A stretch of DNA of 27,603 nt from a virus. The translations under genes were made by a program, and so were the position numbers. The notes below the pieces were generated by a model. That model had not been told where the DNA came from and searched no databases. It was given only the letters and a program-made list of their open reading frames with translations. Location of the stretch: positions 1-27,603 of IMG/VR virus record IMGVR_UViG_3300009376_000066; one strand, given 5' to 3'. Within the stretch, counting starts at the first letter, position 1; every line of letters starts with the position of its first letter. Of this stretch, positions 15,736 to 26,435 are shown piece by piece.

Positions 15736-16581
15736 TTACTCTTGTTCTGCTAACTTCTTGAAGTAATCCAAAGTATCATCAGTCTTTTCACCAGTAGCAA
15801 CTGGATCATCTGTACTTTCTTCAATAGTACCAACAAACTCTTTCCCTTCATGCGCAATTACTGTATTGAATCGAGCTTCAAGTTCTGCATACTGCTTGAA
15901 GTTCTTTTCTGCAATAATATCATTTAATGAATGTTGTTGACCCCAAACTTCTTCCATCTTCTTTTCATCTTTATCCAACGGACACGGATCAGTAAACTCA
16001 GACTTGTCATAGTTTGGAAAACCATCTACTTGACGCATCTTGATTTTAAAGTTTGCACCTTCCCAAAAGTCAAAAGGATTTAGTGGTGTCTCATCCTGAA
16101 ATTCTGGATTCATAACACCAGTAATCTTTTCAAAGATTTTCTTACCATAACGGAATAGAAAAACTTTACCTTCGTTTTCGGGATTCATACTATCTTCAAT
16201 AACATAAATGTTTGAATAGTAGTTAAGTTTACGTCTGCGTTCTCTAGCTATGTTCTTATCTGAATCAATACCAGAGTTCCACAAAGCCGTATTTGCTTTT
16301 GAAACAGGATCATCTTTACCAAGAGTGGTTAAAGAGTTTTCGATATACCAACCACCGGGTCCTTTAAAACCATGTGTCCAAACACGAACCCAAGGTACAT
16401 CTTCTTTTGGTGCTGCGGGAAGAAAACGAATTACTGCATAACCATTACCAGACTTATCTCGTTCTAGTTTCCAGATTCGATCATCTTCATAGGAAGGTTT
16501 TTCTGCGAGTTTCTCGACTTGTTTGGAAAGAGATTCCAAATTAGCCATACGATTCTTTTTCATTTCTTTAAAACTTGCCAT
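15736..16581 (-). CDS. 32: Single-stranded DNA-binding protein gp32
   Basis: 281 residues (T4 gp32 has 301). It has a basic N-terminal region (MASFKEMKKNRMANLESLSK) like the gp32 cooperativity motif, a core OB region with NYYSNIYVIEDSMNPENEG, KVFLFRYGKKIFEKITG, FWEGANFKIKMRQVDGFPNY, and an acidic C-terminal tail (EKTDDTLDYFKKLAEQE). It coats single-stranded DNA in replication and recombination. The T4 zinc-binding Cys/His set is missing: the only Cys in the protein is near residue 199. It converges with the tape-measure gene. Strong ribosome site (AAGGAG). Confidence 0.9.
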   Translation of the reverse strand: MASFKEMKKNRMANLESLSKQVEKLAEKPSYEDDRIWKLERDKSGNGYAVIRFLPAAPKEDVPWVRVWTHGFKGPGGWYIENSLTTLGKDDPVSKANTALWNSGIDSDKNIARERRRKLNYYSNIYVIEDSMNPENEGKVFLFRYGKKIFEKITGVMNPEFQDETPLNPFDFWEGANFKIKMRQVDGFPNYDKSEFTDPCPLDKDEKKMEEVWGQQHSLNDIIAEKNFKQYAELEARFNTVIAHEGKEFVGTIEESTDDPVATGEKTDDTLDYFKKLAEQE

Positions 16582-16703: not shown

Positions 16704-16910
16704 TTATATTGGAAGCTTTGCTGTCTTTTTCAACATATGAAGCTCTTGTGCTTCAACTTCTATTTTATCTTTAATGGATTGGTTCAACATCTTTGCCATT
16801 GCTTCTGGTTCAATCTCAGACTTCTCTGAGCAATGTAAAACTGCTTCCATATAAGACAAATATTTTTCTTTCACTAACTTTTCAATCGTTAAATTTATAT
16901 TTATGGACAT
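16704..16910 (-). CDS. 33: Late transcription co-activator gp33-like
   Basis: 68 residues, helical, ending IKDKIEVEAQELHMLKKTAK then LPI. The layout YMEAVLHCSEKSEIEPEAM followed by IEVEA-x-x-L-x-x-LKK and a final LPI matches the short gp33 proteins of marine T4-like phages as I know them. T4 gp33 (112 residues) bridges RNA polymerase and the sliding clamp at late promoters. Genes 33 and 32 are also close in T4, and TATAAATA boxes in this window imply such a factor. The sequence is short, so moderate certainty. Confidence 0.65.
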   Translation of the reverse strand: MSININLTIEKLVKEKYLSYMEAVLHCSEKSEIEPEAMAKMLNQSIKDKIEVEAQELHMLKKTAKLPI

Positions 16911-17094: not shown

Positions 17095-17652
17095 TTAGTA
17101 AACTGTTTTTACACTATCACATAAACGAAGCTTTTTTGCTTCTGTTGCACTCAACCAGACATCTTGTGCTGGTAACAAAAACTCTCTTATTTTCTTTTCA
17201 TTCAAACCAGTACATTTTTTATAATGACTAATCATACGTTTAGTTGTTAATTCATATTCTTTAACTGTTGCAAACAATTCATGTTCTTTACCATAAGTCC
17301 CCCATGAAAACTGATGTGATAATACAGAAGTATTTGGAGTTAATATTCTATGTCCCTTTGCACCAGATATAAAAATCAATACGGCAGCTGATGCTACACA
17401 ACCAAGTCCGACTGTACGAACTGGAATTGAACTCCCTTTCATTGTATCTATAAGAGCAAAAGCTGCTTGTAAATCACCACCTCCAGAATTAATTACTAAC
17501 TGTAAATACTTTGGGTGTGGCCTCATTAAATTCTTTGATATAATAAATGATATTGCATCTTTACAACTGCTTTCTGATATTTCCTCCATCAAAAGATATA
17601 TACCACATTCTTCGACTGACGGTTGGGTAACTTCTTTTTTTTCTTTTGACAT
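17095..17652 (-). CDS. clpP: ClpP-like serine protease
   Basis: 185 residues, close to bacterial ClpP (about 195-205). The catalytic set is intact: the oxyanion strand INSGGGD (54-60), Ser88 in CVASAAV, His113 in VLSHQF and Asp164 in AQDVWLSATEA. In bacteria ClpP forms a 14-subunit chamber fed by ClpX or ClpA. No ATPase is in this window, so it would need the host's or one elsewhere. Some phages use ClpP-like enzymes as prohead proteases, but this gene lies with lysis and gp32/gp33 genes. The tmRNA gene is about 1.1 kb upstream. Confidence 0.85.
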   Translation of the reverse strand: MSKEKKEVTQPSVEECGIYLLMEEISESSCKDAISFIISKNLMRPHPKYLQLVINSGGGDLQAAFALIDTMKGSSIPVRTVGLGCVASAAVLIFISGAKGHRILTPNTSVLSHQFSWGTYGKEHELFATVKEYELTTKRMISHYKKCTGLNEKKIREFLLPAQDVWLSATEAKKLRLCDSVKTVY

Positions 17653-17663
17653 CCACTTCCTCC

Positions 17664-18203
17664 TTATTCATTTAGATAATCTTTCCAAAATATGTGATCC
17701 CCAATCGTCATCACTTTAATCATTCTTCTATTCCAGTATGGATTAACATCAATCCTATGATAGTGTGTTGAACCATGTAAGAAATCTTCTATCTCCCAAT
17801 GCTCTCCATATCTTGTGATACTAACACCCGGCTTCTGTAACATAGCTCTTGCAATCAACAAAGAAATCTTCCATGCTAATTGATCTTTTGGTCTATCTGA
17901 CTTACCATCACAATACCAAGAAAACTGACACTTATGTTTTTTTATCCTACCATCACTATATCGGTTCGCTTGACGAATAACTTTACATATATTATTCGGA
18001 AATCGTCTACTATTTACACGATTTATTGTAACAAGTGCAACTGCAATCTGTCCTTTAGTGGATTGATCTCTAGCTTCAAAATAAATGTTTTGAGCCAGAC
18101 ATCTAACTTCATCTTGATAATCATAAGAATTTGGTTCATAAGTTACCCTATTAAAAGCAGCACATGATACCAAAACCAAACACATCAAAATAATTTTTTT
18201 CAT
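17664..18203 (-). CDS. SleB-family cell wall hydrolase with lipoprotein signal
   Basis: 179 residues from the ATG at 18203, chosen because it gives a clean signal MKKIILMCLVLVSC with lipobox LVSC (Cys14). The domain matches Hydrolase_2/SleB-CwlJ: LAQNIYFEARDQSTKGQIAV with catalytic-type Glu43, ALVTINRV, CQFSWYCDGKSD (92-103) and THYHRIDVNPYW near residue 150. SleB enzymes cut peptidoglycan glycan strands. The signal suggests export and lipid anchoring, so lysis may not need a holin pore for this enzyme. It follows a small membrane protein and a late promoter. Confidence 0.85.
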   Translation of the reverse strand: MKKIILMCLVLVSCAAFNRVTYEPNSYDYQDEVRCLAQNIYFEARDQSTKGQIAVALVTINRVNSRRFPNNICKVIRQANRYSDGRIKKHKCQFSWYCDGKSDRPKDQLAWKISLLIARAMLQKPGVSITRYGEHWEIEDFLHGSTHYHRIDVNPYWNRRMIKVMTIGDHIFWKDYLNE

Positions 18204-18207
18204 AACA

Positions 18208-18345
18208 TTACCAAAAATAAATAAAACCCCAAACAATACCACCCAATAATGTTAAATCTGCTATCACACACCAAACTATATAAATTTTAAACAGTATAGG
18301 TGCATATTTACTTGTTTGAATTTGGCGAAGGAGGTTCCGGATCAT
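18208..18345 (-). CDS. Small membrane protein, candidate holin, 45 aa
   Basis: Starts MIRNLLRQIQTSKYAPILFK and is hydrophobic from about residue 17 to the end (IYIVWCVIADLTLLGGIVWG), ending FIYFW. A near-perfect ribosome site (AAGGAGG) lies five bases before the ATG. Its stop is four bases before the SleB-type hydrolase ATG. The position, size and membrane helix fit a small holin or lysis accessory, but there is no family match. It overlaps the 25-residue frame in another phase. Confidence 0.6.
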   Translation of the reverse strand: MIRNLLRQIQTSKYAPILFKIYIVWCVIADLTLLGGIVWGFIYFW

Positions 18346-18401: not shown

Positions 18402-18434
18402 AAAAAAAGGTGGGGGCCGAAGCCCCACACCACC
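18402..18434 (-). terminator. Strong intrinsic terminator
   Basis: On the minus strand a GC-rich stem (GGTGTGGGGC / GCCCCCACC) closed by a TTCG tetraloop is followed by TTTTTTT. It ends transcription of the 71-residue gene and isolates it from the late lysis genes. Confidence 0.9.
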
Positions 18435-18451
18435 GGGAATTTAATACTATA

Positions 18452-18667
18452 CTACGCCCAAAACTTATTCAGTTTCTTGCGGATAGCATTAACTGTCTTT
18501 GCGCCACCAACAATGTCTGCGTTCTTAAACGCAACATTACCAGTTGCAGGGCTCGTATAAATCCGAACCCAACGAGGCAAATCTGTAAGCTCACACTCTG
18601 CGCGAGTCATCTTGCGAGCATACTTTCGGCCAATTCGTGGTTGACCGTGTTTTGTACTCATACCCAT
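18452..18667 (-). CDS. Small basic protein, 71 aa
   Basis: Single gene in its own transcription unit, between the early-type promoter at 18740-18768 and the strong terminator at 18402-18434. Start at 18667 (MGMSTKHGQPRIGRKYARKM) because AAGGAG lies six bases before; an ATG at 18673 overlaps the ribosome site. Rich in Arg and Lys at both ends, with WVRIYTSPATGNVAFKNAD in the middle. It has no SmpB signature despite lying next to tmRNA and is too short for it. A nucleic-acid-binding early protein is a guess. Confidence 0.65.
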   Translation of the reverse strand: MGMSTKHGQPRIGRKYARKMTRAECELTDLPRWVRIYTSPATGNVAFKNADIVGGAKTVNAIRKKLNKFWA

Positions 18668-18736
18668 AAACATCTCCTTAAGAAGATTAACAAAAACATG
18701 ATGAAGATACTACTACTCATTCATCATAACAAACAT

Positions 18737-18755
18737 CTCATTATAACATAATGAG
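18737..18755. repeat. Inverted repeat over the early promoter -10 box
   Basis: CTCATTAT (18737-18744) and ATAATGAG (18748-18755) are perfect 8-base arms around a 3-base spacer. The repeat overlaps the TATAAT box at 18740-18745, so a bound dimer or an RNA hairpin at the start site could regulate the promoter. Confidence 0.75.
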
Positions 18756-18768
18756 AATACAAATACAA
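18740..18768 (-). promoter_or_regulatory. Early-type sigma70 promoter (TTGTAT-N17-TATAAT)
   Basis: On the minus strand TTGTAT (18768-18763) and TATAAT (18745-18740) are spaced by 17 bases and preceded by TTTTTCC. It has the same design as the promoter at 22274-22302. It drives the 71-residue gene with a leader of about 65 bases. Confidence 0.8.
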
Positions 18769-18773
18769 GGAAA

Positions 18774-18804
18774 AAGGTGAGGGTTTCTGTTGCCAAGTAC
18801 CCTC
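18774..18804 (-). terminator. Hairpin and T-run at the tmRNA 3' end
   Basis: GAGGGT (18804-18799) pairs with ACCCTC (18784-18779), followed on the minus strand by ACCTTTTTCC. It closes the tmRNA coding piece and can act as an intrinsic terminator; it may also be part of a pseudoknot in the mature RNA. Confidence 0.65.
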
Positions 18805-19040
18805 GGACTCCGACTGACTATGCAGCCATCGCTAATTCGTAATCGTTAGCGTTTAAAGTATGCATAATTGATAACGGAGCCATCATGCTTCTCCGTGCTG
18901 TCCTATAGTTTCCATCATCCTGTCGAAACTAGTTCGCCCCCCTTAATTTGGTAATTCATTATAGTAGGCCTTTAGAATTGGTGGAGGCGGCGGGATCTGC
19001 CCCCGCGTCCAGAAAAACTTTCACTCTAAGATTACACAGC
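18776..19040 (-). ncRNA. ssrA: Circularly permuted two-piece tmRNA (ssrA)
   Basis: Transfer-messenger RNA, which rescues stalled ribosomes and tags proteins for proteolysis. The acceptor piece comes first in transcription: T-arm GCGGG-GGCAGAT-CCCGC, then CGCCTCC-ACCA ending at 18979, so CCA is encoded. A spacer of about 37 bases follows, then the coding piece starting at 18941 with GGGGGCG, which pairs with CGCCTCC in seven pairs and includes the G3-U70 alanine identity pair. AGTTTCGACAGG follows, as in the tmRNA D-region. The tag frame (18850-18818) reads ANDYELAMAA then TAG. The permuted order and AND start are typical of alphaproteobacteria. Exact processed ends are estimated. Confidence 0.93.
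18818..18850 (-). other. tmRNA proteolysis tag frame (ANDYELAMAA)
   Basis: GCT AAC GAT TAC GAA TTA GCG ATG GCT GCA TAG gives a 10-residue tag ending MAA. Ala is the resume residue. It is short compared with many alphaproteobacterial tags (about 12-14 residues) but keeps the small hydrophobic C-terminus needed for ClpXP-type recognition. The exact resume codon is inferred. Confidence 0.85.
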
Positions 19041-19041
19041 A

Positions 19042-19070
19042 ATTATAATATAAAAATTTGAAATATAAAC
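19042..19070 (-). promoter_or_regulatory. Possible tmRNA promoter
   Basis: TATAAT at 19047-19042 lies just upstream of the acceptor piece; a start near 19035 would suit the tmRNA. The -35 region (GTTTAT, 18-base spacing) is weak. It overlaps the end of the 28-residue frame, so read-through from the dNMP kinase operon is also possible. Confidence 0.4.
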
Positions 19071-19129
19071 ATTGTTACAGCAAAAATACCAAACCCTATC
19101 AAAAAAATCCATAATATACTTTCTTTCAT
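19043..19129 (-). CDS. Membrane micropeptide, 28 aa
   Basis: Frame starting MKESILWIFLIGFG and continuing as one hydrophobic helix with Phe and Ile to the end. It begins seven bases after the first base of the dNMP kinase stop. There is no clear ribosome site, and the 3' end overlaps the putative tmRNA promoter. Possibly real, possibly chance in AT-rich DNA. Confidence 0.35.
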   Translation of the reverse strand: MKESILWIFLIGFGIFAVTMFIFQIFIL

Positions 19130-19940: not shown

Positions 19941-21296
19941 TTAATCTCCTTTCACTACTTCATAATTAAATGTTCTTTTACTTAGAACCTCGGTCAAATC
20001 TTCATCTTTATATAAGACAGCTTTAACAACTTCTTGACTTGGAGGACCCGTTATTTTAAAATGAAATGGATAACCAGTCCCACCAATATTATAGATTTTA
20101 TTCTTTTGAATATAATTATCTTTTAAATGCACATTAGGAAACACCTGTGATGATGAATCATTTATAATTCTTTTTGAATGGATAGTCAAATATCCAGACA
20201 CATCAGACCGAACAAAGAAAACTGCTTCTTCACCAACTTCAAATTCTTTCTTATCTAATGCAAACTGAAATTTATACTCTTTAAATTTCTTGAATGTAAC
20301 ATCTAATGTATCTAATCGGCCAAACAAATCTTTCTTGAGTTTATGATTAAATCGTTTTGACAATGTAAACAAATCAACTTCAGCTTTAACAATTTCAAAA
20401 TCATGTTCAATTTTAACATTATTTATCTTTACTTTACAAATACCTTTATCATCACTTGAAATTCGACTAACAAAATTATATGAATTACCATGAAACTTAA
20501 TTGGTAAATTGCGTAAAGCTTGTTTATCATATGTAATCTTTACAACAAACGATTCAAGATTATCTATCTTTTCAACTTCAATATTATTAACAATTGCCTG
20601 TACTTTTTTCTTAAAATCAATTGCTGATGGTATATTAGATGATATTGAGGGAATTTCTGGAAATAAACTTACACTTTTATAAGTTCTCAATAAAGGCAAT
20701 AACTTAGAACTCTCATTATATCCATTATAATAATGCACAAGAGATTTTAAAACTTCTCCGTTATCATGGAATGTATTAGCTTGTTCCATAGTCAAATCAA
20801 TTGACGAAACAATAATATCAACCTGATCTTGAATCATTCTTAAAACATCTTTTCTCTTTACTACTGCAAAAGAATAATAAACTTTTTTTACAGGATCATA
20901 CCAACCATCTTTTATTTGCACACCTTCTAAAAGAACATCTGTTTCAGTCTGAACAAACGATTCAACAAAAGATCCGTCATTACTATTATAATCTTTCATA
21001 ACAGAAGCTAACTTAAAACGAATGGTCTTTGCTATCTCTGCTCTTGCTGACTCACTTGCTGATACTGTATTCTCTTTGGAAAAACCAACCCCGACTAAGT
21101 ATTGAGAATGAGCATAGTGTTTATGTTCTCTGCCCAATACCCAACCGAGTGGTTTCGGAAAATTATCTAATTGTTTCTCTTTTTGAGAAATACCAAAATT
21201 CCCCACCTCTGATTCAGACATCTGCTGAATATCACTTATGGGCATTGTTGTGGCACAACCAGACAGCATTATCAAAAATAACATTATGTAATGCAT
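19941..21296 (-). CDS. Lipoprotein with LPP20-like and DUF4384-like domains
   Basis: 451 residues. A short lipoprotein signal (MHYIMLFLIMLSGC, lipobox LSGC, Cys14) is followed at about 65-155 by an LPP20/FlgO-like pattern: YLVGVGFSKENTVSASESAR, AEIAKTIRF and VYYSFAVVKRKDV. The C-terminal part (about residues 355-440) looks like DUF4384: FEVGEEAVFFVRSDVSGYLT, a FPN segment, GYPFHFKITGP and VVKAVLYKD. Such proteins occur in bacterial surface and secretion loci, acting at the outer membrane. A phage copy could change the infected cell's surface. The middle (160-350) is unassigned. It pairs with the next lipoprotein. Confidence 0.7.
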   Translation of the reverse strand: MHYIMLFLIMLSGCATTMPISDIQQMSESEVGNFGISQKEKQLDNFPKPLGWVLGREHKHYAHSQYLVGVGFSKENTVSASESARAEIAKTIRFKLASVMKDYNSNDGSFVESFVQTETDVLLEGVQIKDGWYDPVKKVYYSFAVVKRKDVLRMIQDQVDIIVSSIDLTMEQANTFHDNGEVLKSLVHYYNGYNESSKLLPLLRTYKSVSLFPEIPSISSNIPSAIDFKKKVQAIVNNIEVEKIDNLESFVVKITYDKQALRNLPIKFHGNSYNFVSRISSDDKGICKVKINNVKIEHDFEIVKAEVDLFTLSKRFNHKLKKDLFGRLDTLDVTFKKFKEYKFQFALDKKEFEVGEEAVFFVRSDVSGYLTIHSKRIINDSSSQVFPNVHLKDNYIQKNKIYNIGGTGYPFHFKITGPPSQEVVKAVLYKDEDLTEVLSKRTFNYEVVKGD

Positions 21297-21320
21297 GATA
21301 AAATCTCCAAATCAACAATA

Positions 21321-21932
21321 TTAGTTTTTATCAGGAAAAAACTTACGTCCTTCTTCTATCTTATTAGATTCTTCTTCCATAAGTTTAAAACGATCAGCTG
21401 CACGGTTTTTAATAGCATCACGCACATTATCAGGTAGTTTTTTAAACTCTGGACTAGTTGAGATATTTCTTTTAACAGCATCATAATCTAAACGTGCCAA
21501 AGATAAAAACTCACGACGCTCTGGAATTTCAAAATGGTCTACGATTACAGCACCGCGAAGTGTTTGTGCTACTACAACTTTCATTGCCACCTCAGCATTT
21601 TGCTCTTCGCTAGAAGTATCAAAATTGCCCATTGTAGTATGACCTTGATAATCTTTAGTCAAAGAATTTACATACACTTCAAAAACTTTAGCAAGATCAC
21701 CTCTGGCTCTATCATCAGCTACAGTTCGTTGTAAAGAATAATTCTGTATGCCAGTAGCTGAACCAACACCATAAAATGCTTTACCATCTTTATCAGTAAA
21801 CGCACCACCACCGACATGAACCCATTTTGGAGCATTATACTCACTAAGTGCCTTTGGTTTTTCTGGTACTGTTGGAATCGTACCACATGCTCCCAACAGC
21901 AAAATTAAACTCACCATCATAAAATATTTCAT
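21321..21932 (-). CDS. LPP20-family lipoprotein, 203 aa
   Basis: Lipoprotein signal MKYFMMVSLILLLGAC with lipobox LGAC (Cys16). The body contains PKWVHVGGGAFTDKDGKAFY, GVGSATGIQNYSLQRTVADD, RARGDLAKVFEVYV and FLSLARLDYDAV, the LPP20-type pattern of a small alpha/beta domain in outer-membrane lipoproteins. The C-terminus is charged helix. It lies upstream of the larger DUF4384-like lipoprotein, so the two are probably made together. Strong ribosome site (AAGGAG). An outer-membrane role, for example blocking superinfection, is inference. Confidence 0.75.
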   Translation of the reverse strand: MKYFMMVSLILLLGACGTIPTVPEKPKALSEYNAPKWVHVGGGAFTDKDGKAFYGVGSATGIQNYSLQRTVADDRARGDLAKVFEVYVNSLTKDYQGHTTMGNFDTSSEEQNAEVAMKVVVAQTLRGAVIVDHFEIPERREFLSLARLDYDAVKRNISTSPEFKKLPDNVRDAIKNRAADRFKLMEEESNKIEEGRKFFPDKN

Positions 21933-22305: not shown

Positions 22306-22347
22306 AAAACATAACCTGTAAGTCCCCATTTTTAAAGGGTTTATGTG
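22306..22347 (-). terminator. Probable terminator after the aldehyde dehydrogenase
   Basis: On the minus strand ACATAAACC pairs with GGTTATGT (one bulged A), around an inner CCC/GGG hairpin, and TTTTT follows. The stem begins in the ALDH stop codon and the T-run abuts the next promoter. Confidence 0.5.
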
Positions 22348-23825
22348 TTGTCTATTTGTGCCTTTTGAATACGGCCGGAGAAGTCCACGCTACATACTTT
22401 CCATTCAGTACAGTTATCCAACATGGTTTGTCCTGCGTCTCTATGTCCATTTCCTGTACCTTTTAATCCTCCAAAGGGGAGATGCACCTCTGCACCAATA
22501 CAGGAAGCATTAACATAAACAAGACCAGTCTCTATTTCTTGAAATGCTCTCATAGCAAAATTAATATCACTAGTATAAACAGCTGCTGAAAGTCCATAAG
22601 CAGTATTATTAATTTGCCAGATTGCTTCATTTGAATTTGTAAAAGTATTCAAGGCAACTACTGGCCCGAATATTTCTTCTTGCATAAGTGGATCACTAAT
22701 ATCAACATCATCAAAAATTGTAGGTTCAAAAAAGTAACCATAAGTATCTTTTGTAGGTTCTTGAATAGTATTTCCACCACAAAGAATTGTTACACCACGT
22801 TCTTTAGCTTCATCAACATACTTAGATACTTTAGCTACTGATTTGGAATTTATCAAAGGACCCATATTAACTGTTTCGTCTAATCCATCACCGATAAATA
22901 ACGATTTTGTTTTTTCTAATAATTTATTAGTAAATTCTTCTTTAACATTTTCATGTACAAATACTCTGGAACAAGCAGTACATCTTTGACCCGTAGTACC
23001 AAATGCTCCAAATGCAACTCCTTCAACTGCAAGATCGAGGTCTGCATCTTGATCTACAATGATACCATTCTTACCACCCATCTCAAGTGAATATTGTTTA
23101 CCAAGTTCTGCACAAGCAGTCGCAATAATTTTACCAGTTGCTGTTGAACCAGTAAACGATAACATTTTAACATCTGGATGTTGTGCTAACGGCAATCCAG
23201 CCGTTGGGCCATAACCAGTTACAACATTAAATACACCAGATGGTAGTCCAGCTTCAATAAAAATTTCTGCCAACTTAATAACAGACCACGGAGTATCTTC
23301 TGCTGGTTTCATAACCATTGTGTTACCAGCAACCAATGCTGGAAACGCTTTCCATGCAGGAATTGCTATTGGAAAATTCCAAGGTGTTATTGCACCAATA
23401 ACTCCCATTGGTTGTCGAATAGTCATCACCATCTTATCTTTCAATTCAGATGGATTGGTTTCACCTGCTAATCGTCTACCTTCACCAGCTGCATAATATG
23501 CCATGTCAATTGCTTCTTGAACATCTCCTCTAGTTTCGGCAATAATCTTACCCATCTCTTGAGTCATGCCCTTTGCAATACATTCTTTATCACGTTCCAT
23601 TATCTGTGCAGCTTTAAAAAGAATCTCAGCACGTTTTGGTGCAGGTATGTTCTTCCACAACTTGAAGGCATCTTTAGCATGCTCAACTGCACGATCAATA
23701 TCAAGCCGTACAGAATCTTGAAACTCACCAATGTCTTGACCGGTGTGTGCTGGATTATAAGATTTAAAAGTTCTACCAGAAACAGACTCCAACCACACAC
23801 CACCAATAAAATTCTTATAAATCAT
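22341..23825 (-). CDS. NAD(P)-dependent aldehyde dehydrogenase
   Basis: 494 residues, full length for the ALDH superfamily. Key parts are intact: PWNFP with Asn150, KPAEDTPWS (173-181), FTGST (224-228), Glu248 in LEMGGKN, catalytic Cys282 in GTTGQRCTACSR, EEIFGPV (383-389) and GAEVHLPFGGLKGTGNGHRD (444-463). The C-terminal pattern resembles the alpha-ketoglutaric semialdehyde dehydrogenase group, but the substrate cannot be fixed from sequence alone. It oxidises an aldehyde to an acid and makes NAD(P)H. An ALDH is unusual in a phage and is probably host-derived. Codon use is AT-rich like its neighbours, so it is well adapted. Confidence 0.9.
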   Translation of the reverse strand: MIYKNFIGGVWLESVSGRTFKSYNPAHTGQDIGEFQDSVRLDIDRAVEHAKDAFKLWKNIPAPKRAEILFKAAQIMERDKECIAKGMTQEMGKIIAETRGDVQEAIDMAYYAAGEGRRLAGETNPSELKDKMVMTIRQPMGVIGAITPWNFPIAIPAWKAFPALVAGNTMVMKPAEDTPWSVIKLAEIFIEAGLPSGVFNVVTGYGPTAGLPLAQHPDVKMLSFTGSTATGKIIATACAELGKQYSLEMGGKNGIIVDQDADLDLAVEGVAFGAFGTTGQRCTACSRVFVHENVKEEFTNKLLEKTKSLFIGDGLDETVNMGPLINSKSVAKVSKYVDEAKERGVTILCGGNTIQEPTKDTYGYFFEPTIFDDVDISDPLMQEEIFGPVVALNTFTNSNEAIWQINNTAYGLSAAVYTSDINFAMRAFQEIETGLVYVNASCIGAEVHLPFGGLKGTGNGHRDAGQTMLDNCTEWKVCSVDFSGRIQKAQIDNT

Positions 23826-24983: not shown

Positions 24984-25781
24984 TTAATTAAAGTAACCCT
25001 TTACTAATCCTAATTTATGAAGTAACCATATAGACATCCATGTTAGATCAACTTCAAACCATTTTAAACCATGTTTTACTTTCTTTGGACTATAATGATG
25101 ATTGTTATGCCATCCTTCTCCAAAACTCAGTATTGCAGCCCACCAACAATTAGTGGACAAATCATTTTTAATATTGTAATTCTTATATCCCCACATATGA
25201 CAAGCACTATTGACTAACCATGTTACATGATACACAAGAACTAATCTTACAAAGATTCCCCAAACAACCCAAGAAATACCACCAAGTAAATAAAATACAA
25301 TTCCCAAAGCTACTTGAATATGAATGTAATACTTATCTAAGAATTGGTAAAACTTATCTTTATTAATATCCCTTGTATATTGTTCTATGGTCTTATCGTT
25401 ATCACTATCCTGTGTATATAACATCCATCCTATATGCGACCACCAAAATCCACGATTAGCATTGTGTGGATCATTTTCTGTATCTGAAAATTGATGATGT
25501 TGTCTATGATGTCCTACCCATTTGATAGGACCGTTTTGACAAGCAAGAGTACCACAAAACACAACAAAATAAGCTAACCATTTTGGTATTATCAAACTCT
25601 TATGAGTTAAATATCTATGATAACCAAAACAAATACCAATAGAAGCAGTCAACCAATACATCACTAGCATTAGTGTTACTGCACTCCAACAAAATATCTC
25701 TGGTATCAAGGCCAATAAAGCACCGAGATGTAAAAAAATAAACCATGATATAATTGGTTTTGAAATTACTTCACTATTCAT
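24984..25781 (-). CDS. Fatty acid desaturase (delta-9 acyl desaturase-like)
   Basis: 265 residues, integral membrane, with the three His boxes of membrane di-iron desaturases: HRYLTH (55-60), HRQHH (92-96) and HNNHH (225-229), plus NSACHMWG (191-198), a signature of the stearoyl-CoA/acyl-lipid delta-9 group. Hydrophobic helices lie at about 10-50, 65-80 and 155-190. It introduces a double bond into fatty acids and would make the host membrane more fluid. Desaturase genes are known in some marine phages. Electron donors must come from the host. Confidence 0.9.
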   Translation of the reverse strand: MNSEVISKPIISWFIFLHLGALLALIPEIFCWSAVTLMLVMYWLTASIGICFGYHRYLTHKSLIIPKWLAYFVVFCGTLACQNGPIKWVGHHRQHHQFSDTENDPHNANRGFWWSHIGWMLYTQDSDNDKTIEQYTRDINKDKFYQFLDKYYIHIQVALGIVFYLLGGISWVVWGIFVRLVLVYHVTWLVNSACHMWGYKNYNIKNDLSTNCWWAAILSFGEGWHNNHHYSPKKVKHGLKWFEVDLTWMSIWLLHKLGLVKGYFN

Positions 25782-26008: not shown

Positions 26009-26353
26009 TTACGAAATAGTGTTGCCATTATTCCTCCTCAGTTCAATTTGTTGTTCATAAGTTAGTCCTCCGAATGGATGCTCTCCACCAAATCGAGGTA
26101 CATCATATGCGTTTGTCGGTACTACTTCTATTTCAGGATCTACAGCTTGTCTCAATGCTCGTTCTATACCTCTCAATGTACCACCTGCACTAGATGGACA
26201 ACTACCACAAGCTCCTTGAAATGATATTACAACTTTATTTCCTTCTACCAAGTTAAGTTCTATGTTCCCACCATCAGACACTAAATAAGGTCTAATAGTT
26301 TCATCTATACACTTCTCAACAGCTTCATACTTTTCTATATCATTCATCATCAT
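26009..26353 (-). CDS. NifU-like Fe-S cluster scaffold protein
   Basis: 114 residues from the ATG at 26353 (start uncertain; 26347 and 26368 are alternatives). It has the C-terminal NifU/Nfu domain: IRPYLVSDGGNIELN, VVISFQGACGSCPSSAGGTL with the CGSC cluster-binding pair (C49, C52), and GIERALRQAVDPEIEVV. Such proteins carry a 4Fe-4S cluster to apo-enzymes. The C-terminal 30 residues (DVPRFGGEHPFGGLTYEQQ) are extra. It overlaps the stop of the upstream micropeptide gene. Fe-S supply might help host or phage Fe-S enzymes during infection. Confidence 0.85.
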   Translation of the reverse strand: MMMNDIEKYEAVEKCIDETIRPYLVSDGGNIELNLVEGNKVVISFQGACGSCPSSAGGTLRGIERALRQAVDPEIEVVPTNAYDVPRFGGEHPFGGLTYEQQIELRRNNGNTIS

Positions 26354-26435
26354 AAGTCTTAATGTCATTCCATGCAAAGATTATGGCGAATACCATAAAC
26401 CCAAGACACATTATTGCAAAAATTATTTCAATCAT
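26340..26435 (-). CDS. Membrane micropeptide, 31 aa
   Basis: Frame MIEIIFAIMCLGFMVFAIIF followed by AWNDIKTYDDE: one membrane helix and an acidic tail. Its ATG overlaps the stop of the coiled-coil membrane protein by ATGA, and its 3' end overlaps the NifU-like start. Translational coupling is probable; function unknown. Confidence 0.5.
   Translation of the reverse strand: MIEIIFAIMCLGFMVFAIIFAWNDIKTYDDE

Follow-up and report, generated by a model that had tools for sequence, protein, structure and literature searches.

A circularly permuted tmRNA gene at a conserved position upstream of gp33 and gp32 in T4-like phages

Two-piece tmRNAs have been published from T4-like marine phages, so the kind of gene described here was already known. 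The closest described system is Methylophilales phage Melnitz (MZ577097), in which a glutamine riboswitch was reported in the 3' part of the tmRNA gene; in the same study 53 two-piece cases were found among 18,146 phage genomes, and 17 of 47 Melnitz-cluster contigs carried one (PMC9004378). The DNA analyzed here (the window; the whole 27.6 kb stretch of virus contig IMGVR_UViG_3300009376_000066) resembles Melnitz, a T4-like marine myophage, in having a permuted alpha-like tmRNA gene just upstream of gp33 and gp32, with a cell wall hydrolase upstream in the same region. The Melnitz tag is ANDNYVPVDYALAA (14 aa), however, versus ANDYELAMAA (10 aa) in the window, Melnitz has no ClpP in between, and in the window no riboswitch family was matched (Rfam). 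Pelagibacter phage HTVC008M likewise has a permuted tmRNA directly upstream of gp33 (tag ANFNEYALAA, RF04321 90.6 bits) but no ClpP there; the gene (NC_020484, about 145161-145370, within the stretch of about 145103-145414; L374:15104-15415) is unannotated in the GenBank record. A second ClpP-bearing T4-like lineage (e.g. L023, L018, L047) shares the order tmRNA-hydrolase-ClpP-gp33-gp32 with the window, whereas its tmRNAs reach their highest scores (up to 165.9 bits) with RF01850 and mostly have the canonical T-loop UUCGA, and the lineage branches apart from the window's in the trees of both tmRNA and gp32. Added here to the published record are the breadth of the conserved slot upstream of gp33-gp32, the HTVC008M gene, the second lineage with the other tmRNA type, and the ClpP neighbour.

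The window has T4-like genes for gp32, the baseplate hub, the tail tube and a gp33-like coactivator; it is a fragment of a T4-like myophage, probably marine, judging from related isolates. Read along the minus strand, the tmRNA comes after a dNMP kinase gene and is followed by a 73-aa ORF, the genes for the cell wall hydrolase and the ClpP homologue, the gp33-like gene and gp32. The 73-aa ORF (18452-18673) lies between the tmRNA and the hydrolase, is conserved in the window's lineage and had no PHROG match; it is followed by a strong hairpin and T run resembling an intrinsic terminator (18410-18428, minus strand, a consensus match only). Downstream are the cell wall hydrolase (Hydrolase_2, endolysin-like; 17664-18242; PF07486, 1.4e-19; phrog_938), the ClpP-family serine protease homologue (17095-17652; PF00574, 6.3e-28), the gp33-like late-transcription coactivator (16704-16910; PF16805, 9.9e-18; phrog_254) and the gp32-like single-stranded DNA binding protein that anchors the syntenic block (15736-16581; PF08804, 2e-46; phrog_224), all on the minus strand. 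Beside the dNMP kinase, at 19941-21932 (minus strand), are two lipoprotein-like genes, one of the LPP20/DUF4384 type, which perhaps stand in for the curli-type CsgG genes of pelagimyophages.

The circularly permuted, full-length tmRNA gene occupies 18776-19041 on the minus strand. ARAGORN called a permuted tmRNA (tmRNA*) within the search span 18727-19071, the sole tRNA or tmRNA gene of the window. RF04321 (tmRNA_permuted) matched 18818-19041 from end to end (model positions 1-213) with 114.5 bits (E = 5.9e-22; cut-off 47), and RF01849 (alpha_tmRNA) matched 18776-19090 with 110.9 bits (E = 9e-30; cut-off 50). Alpha and beta models were scored separately, and the cyanobacterial tmRNA model entered via clan competition only; the beta model (RF01850 type) gave 75.5 bits against 110.9 for alpha, below its cut-off of 84, which places the gene in the alpha subtype. 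The gene is covered over its full length by both RF01849 and RF04321, with scores far over the cut-offs, but the mRNA-like domain is shorter than the alpha consensus (alignment deletions) and the tag has only 10 residues. When phage and plasmid collections were searched at the nucleotide level with the tmRNA, only short matches or none were obtained. The preliminary description, made from the letters alone, had proposed a phage-borne permuted tmRNA and an Infernal search with RF01849 as a check. The locus passed that check, ARAGORN and both Rfam models agree on a permuted tmRNA, the record is a virus contig with T4-like genes, and every sequence element that had been named (CCA, seven acceptor pairs, G-U third pair, UUUCGACAGG, tag frame) is present on the minus strand.

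The precursor consists of an acceptor-3'/T-arm piece, an intervening sequence and an acceptor-5'/mRNA-like piece, as delimited by ARAGORN, RF04321, RF01849 and covariation; all features below are on the minus strand. The first-transcribed piece (18979-19041; sequence and RF04321 alignment) holds UGCUGU (the 5' strand of the joining helix), the T arm (GCGGG/CCCGC), the acceptor 3' half, the discriminator A (A73, 18982) and the encoded CCA (18981-18979), the last two read directly from the sequence. The intervening sequence (18942-18978; alignment) varies widely in length among relatives and is expected, by analogy with known permuted tmRNAs, to be cut out by tRNA-type processing. The second-transcribed piece (18776-18941; sequence, Rfam and alignment) contains the acceptor 5' half, followed by the D-region UUUCGACAGG, then ACAGCA, which completes the long helix joining both pieces, and the mRNA-like domain with its stems. 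The acceptor stem forms between segments in reversed order: the 3' strand CGCCUCC (18983-18989) makes seven pairs with GGGGGCG (18935-18941), the third being G18939-U18985, the equivalent of G3-U70. A hairpin CGGAG/CUCCG (18875-18895) is the first stem after the tRNA-like domain and lies upstream of the tag. The tag frame (18818-18850; ARAGORN, alignment and third-position variation) reads GCU AAC GAU UAC GAA UUA GCG AUG GCU GCA UAG, opening with an alanine resume codon and ending in AA before the stop, and the peptide is conserved. The 3'-terminal hairpin is GAGGGU/ACCCUC (18779-18804). Immediately upstream of the gene is a sigma-70-like promoter, TTTATA-16-TATAAT (19042-19069), a consensus match only; promoter-like sites in the region were not enriched over shuffles.

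Covariation was evaluated on an alignment of 13 tmRNAs (12 distinct) from the window's phage lineage, with pairs taken from the window sequence. Across the 29 structural pairs and 13 loci, 99.4% of 344 pair cells were paired, a figure favoured by drawing the structure from one aligned sequence, which does not explain the compensatory changes. Such changes occurred in 10 of the 29 pairs: 2 in the acceptor, 2 in the T stem, 3 in the pre-tag hairpin (of its 5 pairs) and 3 in the last hairpin. The observed covariation was reached in 0 of 500 shuffles, and sliding the partners by 1-3 columns reduced pairing to about half. Two of the seven acceptor pairs, which link the reversed segments, thus changed in compensation, and the G-U pair was invariant. 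The joining helix UGCUGU/ACAGCA was also invariant and 100% paired, so that covariation there informs neither way; the single-sequence fold was mildly better than shuffles (z = -2.0), which is weak evidence. Comparison of 11 distinct tags showed only third-position differences in alanine codons 7, 9 and 10, and residue 8 was I, L or M throughout. The A four bases 5' of the resume codon was invariant in the aligned relatives; its equivalent in E. coli tmRNA, A86, is required for activity (PMC2481249). These comparisons indicate that the tag is under coding constraint and the whole gene under purifying selection. The gene is maintained and is not a relic. Judged from sequence, this is probably a two-piece tmRNA gene that looks functional and is kept up by its T4-like myophage.

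The tag had been described as shorter than many host tags, but it is not unusually short, since tags of 10 residues are the commonest in a database of 97,179 tmRNA sequences (PMC11915505). It is short relative to the alpha-type tags of 13-14 residues collected here; in ClpP-less contigs with a tmRNA upstream of gp33 the alpha-type tags have mostly 12-15 residues. Both ClpP-bearing lineages have 10-aa tags, of the form AN[DQ]Yxx A[LMI]AA in the window's lineage and ANDxxxALAA in the other; the sole longer call, in L081, is an N-terminal extension by ARAGORN.

ClpP relatives in IMG/VR share the same gene block, and a permuted tmRNA is present in every T4-like one whose sequence extends 3 kb or more upstream of ClpP (in L041 the gene is cut at the contig edge and was detected by the covariance model alone). 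These T4-like contigs form two lineages, each fully supported and non-sister in the gp32 tree; tmRNAs of the window's lineage lean towards the alpha model, and those of the second are beta-type. The tmRNA keeps its place in contigs whose ClpP identity ranges from 100% to about 63%. Another set of ClpP contigs has no T4-like neighbours (L056, L058-L061, L063-L066, L068-L073, L075, L078), and in their fetched flanks ARAGORN found zero tmRNA; the contig of L064 has a permuted tmRNA elsewhere, outside the ClpP flanks. A second survey, anchored on gp32 instead of ClpP, placed a tmRNA upstream of gp33 in many ClpP-less contigs. Among 24 ARAGORN-negative representatives the Rfam models detected a tmRNA in 10, and RF04321 scores of about 74-120 bits were obtained for genes missed by ARAGORN in L176, L216, L217, L227, L256, L261, L274, L276, L286, L302, L308, L312 and L331. 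As ARAGORN misses permuted tmRNAs, phage tmRNA counts based on it are too low. With ARAGORN alone, ClpP and tmRNA had appeared strongly associated (14/14 vs. 21/45, P = 0.0003), an association that was weakened by the covariance-model tmRNAs in ARAGORN-negative ClpP-less contigs.

By comparison with known permuted tmRNAs, the minus-strand transcript would be a precursor in which host enzymes of tRNA processing would cleave at the encoded CCA and at the 5' end of the acceptor. Two helices that show covariation or conservation, the acceptor stem and UGCUGU/ACAGCA, would hold the two pieces together, and alanine would be charged through the G-U acceptor pair. Delivery would presumably fall to host SmpB. 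SmpB was not found in 25 related contigs, with control genomes positive; because the contigs searched are incomplete, dependence on host SmpB is uncertain. Ribosomes stalled on broken messages during infection would then be rescued, with A-ANDYELAMAA added to the unfinished product, and because the ...AMAA end resembles known degrons, host proteases would be expected to degrade the tagged products. The most likely benefit is that ribosomes would stay available at a time when host mRNA is being broken down and phage message abounds, tagging being part of the normal reaction. This explanation is supported by the presence of the tmRNA at the same position in the window's lineage, in the second ClpP-bearing lineage and in many ClpP-less relatives.

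Alternatively, the phage tmRNA might tag host or aberrant proteins and the neighbouring phage ClpP help to destroy them, so that proteolysis is redirected to the phage's favour. ClpP lies about 1.1 kb downstream of the tmRNA on the same strand, the two co-occur in both non-sister T4-like lineages, and a permuted tmRNA was present in 13 of 13 ClpP-positive vs. 20 of 34 ClpP-negative representatives (after covariance-model correction, leaving out loci that had been selected by tmRNA; Fisher P = 0.005). The 13 ClpP-positive representatives are two lineages and not independent cases, however, so this P value is no evidence of a functional link, and tmRNA is common upstream of gp33 without ClpP. 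The protease itself keeps the Ser-His-Asp triad in 26 of 26 aligned phage sequences, but lacks the N-terminal axial loop and the hydrophobic pocket residues (Y60 to Q/N, Y62 to V/I, F82 to G, L189 to K) at positions that we take to be equivalent to the ClpX/ClpA docking pocket. Neither ClpX nor SspB was found in 20 related contigs (fragments), and the strong terminator-like hairpin separates the tmRNA and the 73-aa ORF from the hydrolase-ClpP pair. A ClpP lacking the usual ClpX-docking features does not demonstrate a phage 'tag and degrade' cassette, which we consider improbable; the co-location of ClpP and tmRNA in two lineages is a lead and not a result. Quite a long shot, too, is a phage-specific trans-translation module in T4-like phages, with a tag that departs from those of bacterial permuted tmRNAs and, in two separate lineages, a ClpP working without an unfoldase or with a different one, the phage thereby writing and reading its own degradation tag. 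The phage RNA could also act on host trans-translation while being itself non-productive. As a decoy or competitive inhibitor it would occupy host SmpB, alanyl-tRNA synthetase or ribosomes without full trans-translation, for which there is a precedent in the tag-less tmRNA of phage DS6A, reported to inhibit endogenous tmRNA in E. coli (PMC11915505); an intact tag frame under coding constraint and a covarying structure would be needless for a decoy, and this reading is very unlikely.

Ribosome rescue by a resident phage gene also has to be weighed against other accounts of how the gene came to be there. Host ssrA is a frequent attachment site, and ssrA fragments occur in prophages (PMC9004378), but the gene in the window is complete, is under purifying selection and shares its gene order with many contigs, and the carrier is a T4-like phage whose scanned genes include no integrase, so that a host ssrA fragment brought along by a temperate phage as an integration-site relic is hardly credible. 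The preliminary description had further supposed that the phage's gene is a captured alphaproteobacterial ssrA. A midpoint-rooted tree was built from the tRNA-like and mRNA-like parts of permuted tmRNAs, all of them from phages and proviruses; in it the tmRNAs of the window's lineage form a single clade (0.999) and lie on the alpha side (support 0.887), away from the beta-type clade with ANDERFALAA-like tags. Capture from an alphaproteobacterium is plausible, but the support of 0.887 is moderate, the root is a midpoint, and one clade member (L012) scores best with the beta model. The tRNAs of a 59.8 kb relative did not point to a host. The best score under the alpha model and the placement on the alpha side speak for a recent capture from a present alphaproteobacterial host, but the gene is monophyletic within the phage lineage, its position is conserved over the whole range of ClpP identity, and when about 85,000 species genomes were scanned for the tag form ANDY[DE]xAxAA, no permuted bacterial tmRNA was found, the seven matches all being standard-form tmRNAs of Atribacterota, Clostridia and other unrelated bacteria. 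Recent capture is thus unlikely. The clade, its placement on the alpha side and the negative tag scan make an old phage resident of alpha-like ancestry the most likely origin, and the tmRNA looks like a long-standing occupant of a conserved slot.

These loci show that the phage two-piece tmRNA, known before from a few isolates, recurs at one defined position across a broad T4-like group, and several such genes have been overlooked by standard annotation. They offer a testable case of phages bringing their own ribosome rescue, with natural tag variants that can be compared with host tags.

Some further observations concern the neighbours and relatives of the gene. ClpP is about 67% identical between the two T4-like lineages, and their gp32 proteins only about 44%, which suggests transfer or unusual conservation of ClpP. 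Host-like metabolic genes on the minus strand of the window encode an aldehyde dehydrogenase (22341-23825), a fatty acid desaturase (24984-25781) and a NifU-domain protein (26009-26377). In a close relative (L297:361-480) the tmRNA has almost no intervening sequence and CCA is not encoded (CCTCCACTTATGGGGGAT), so that its 3' end would require CCA addition.
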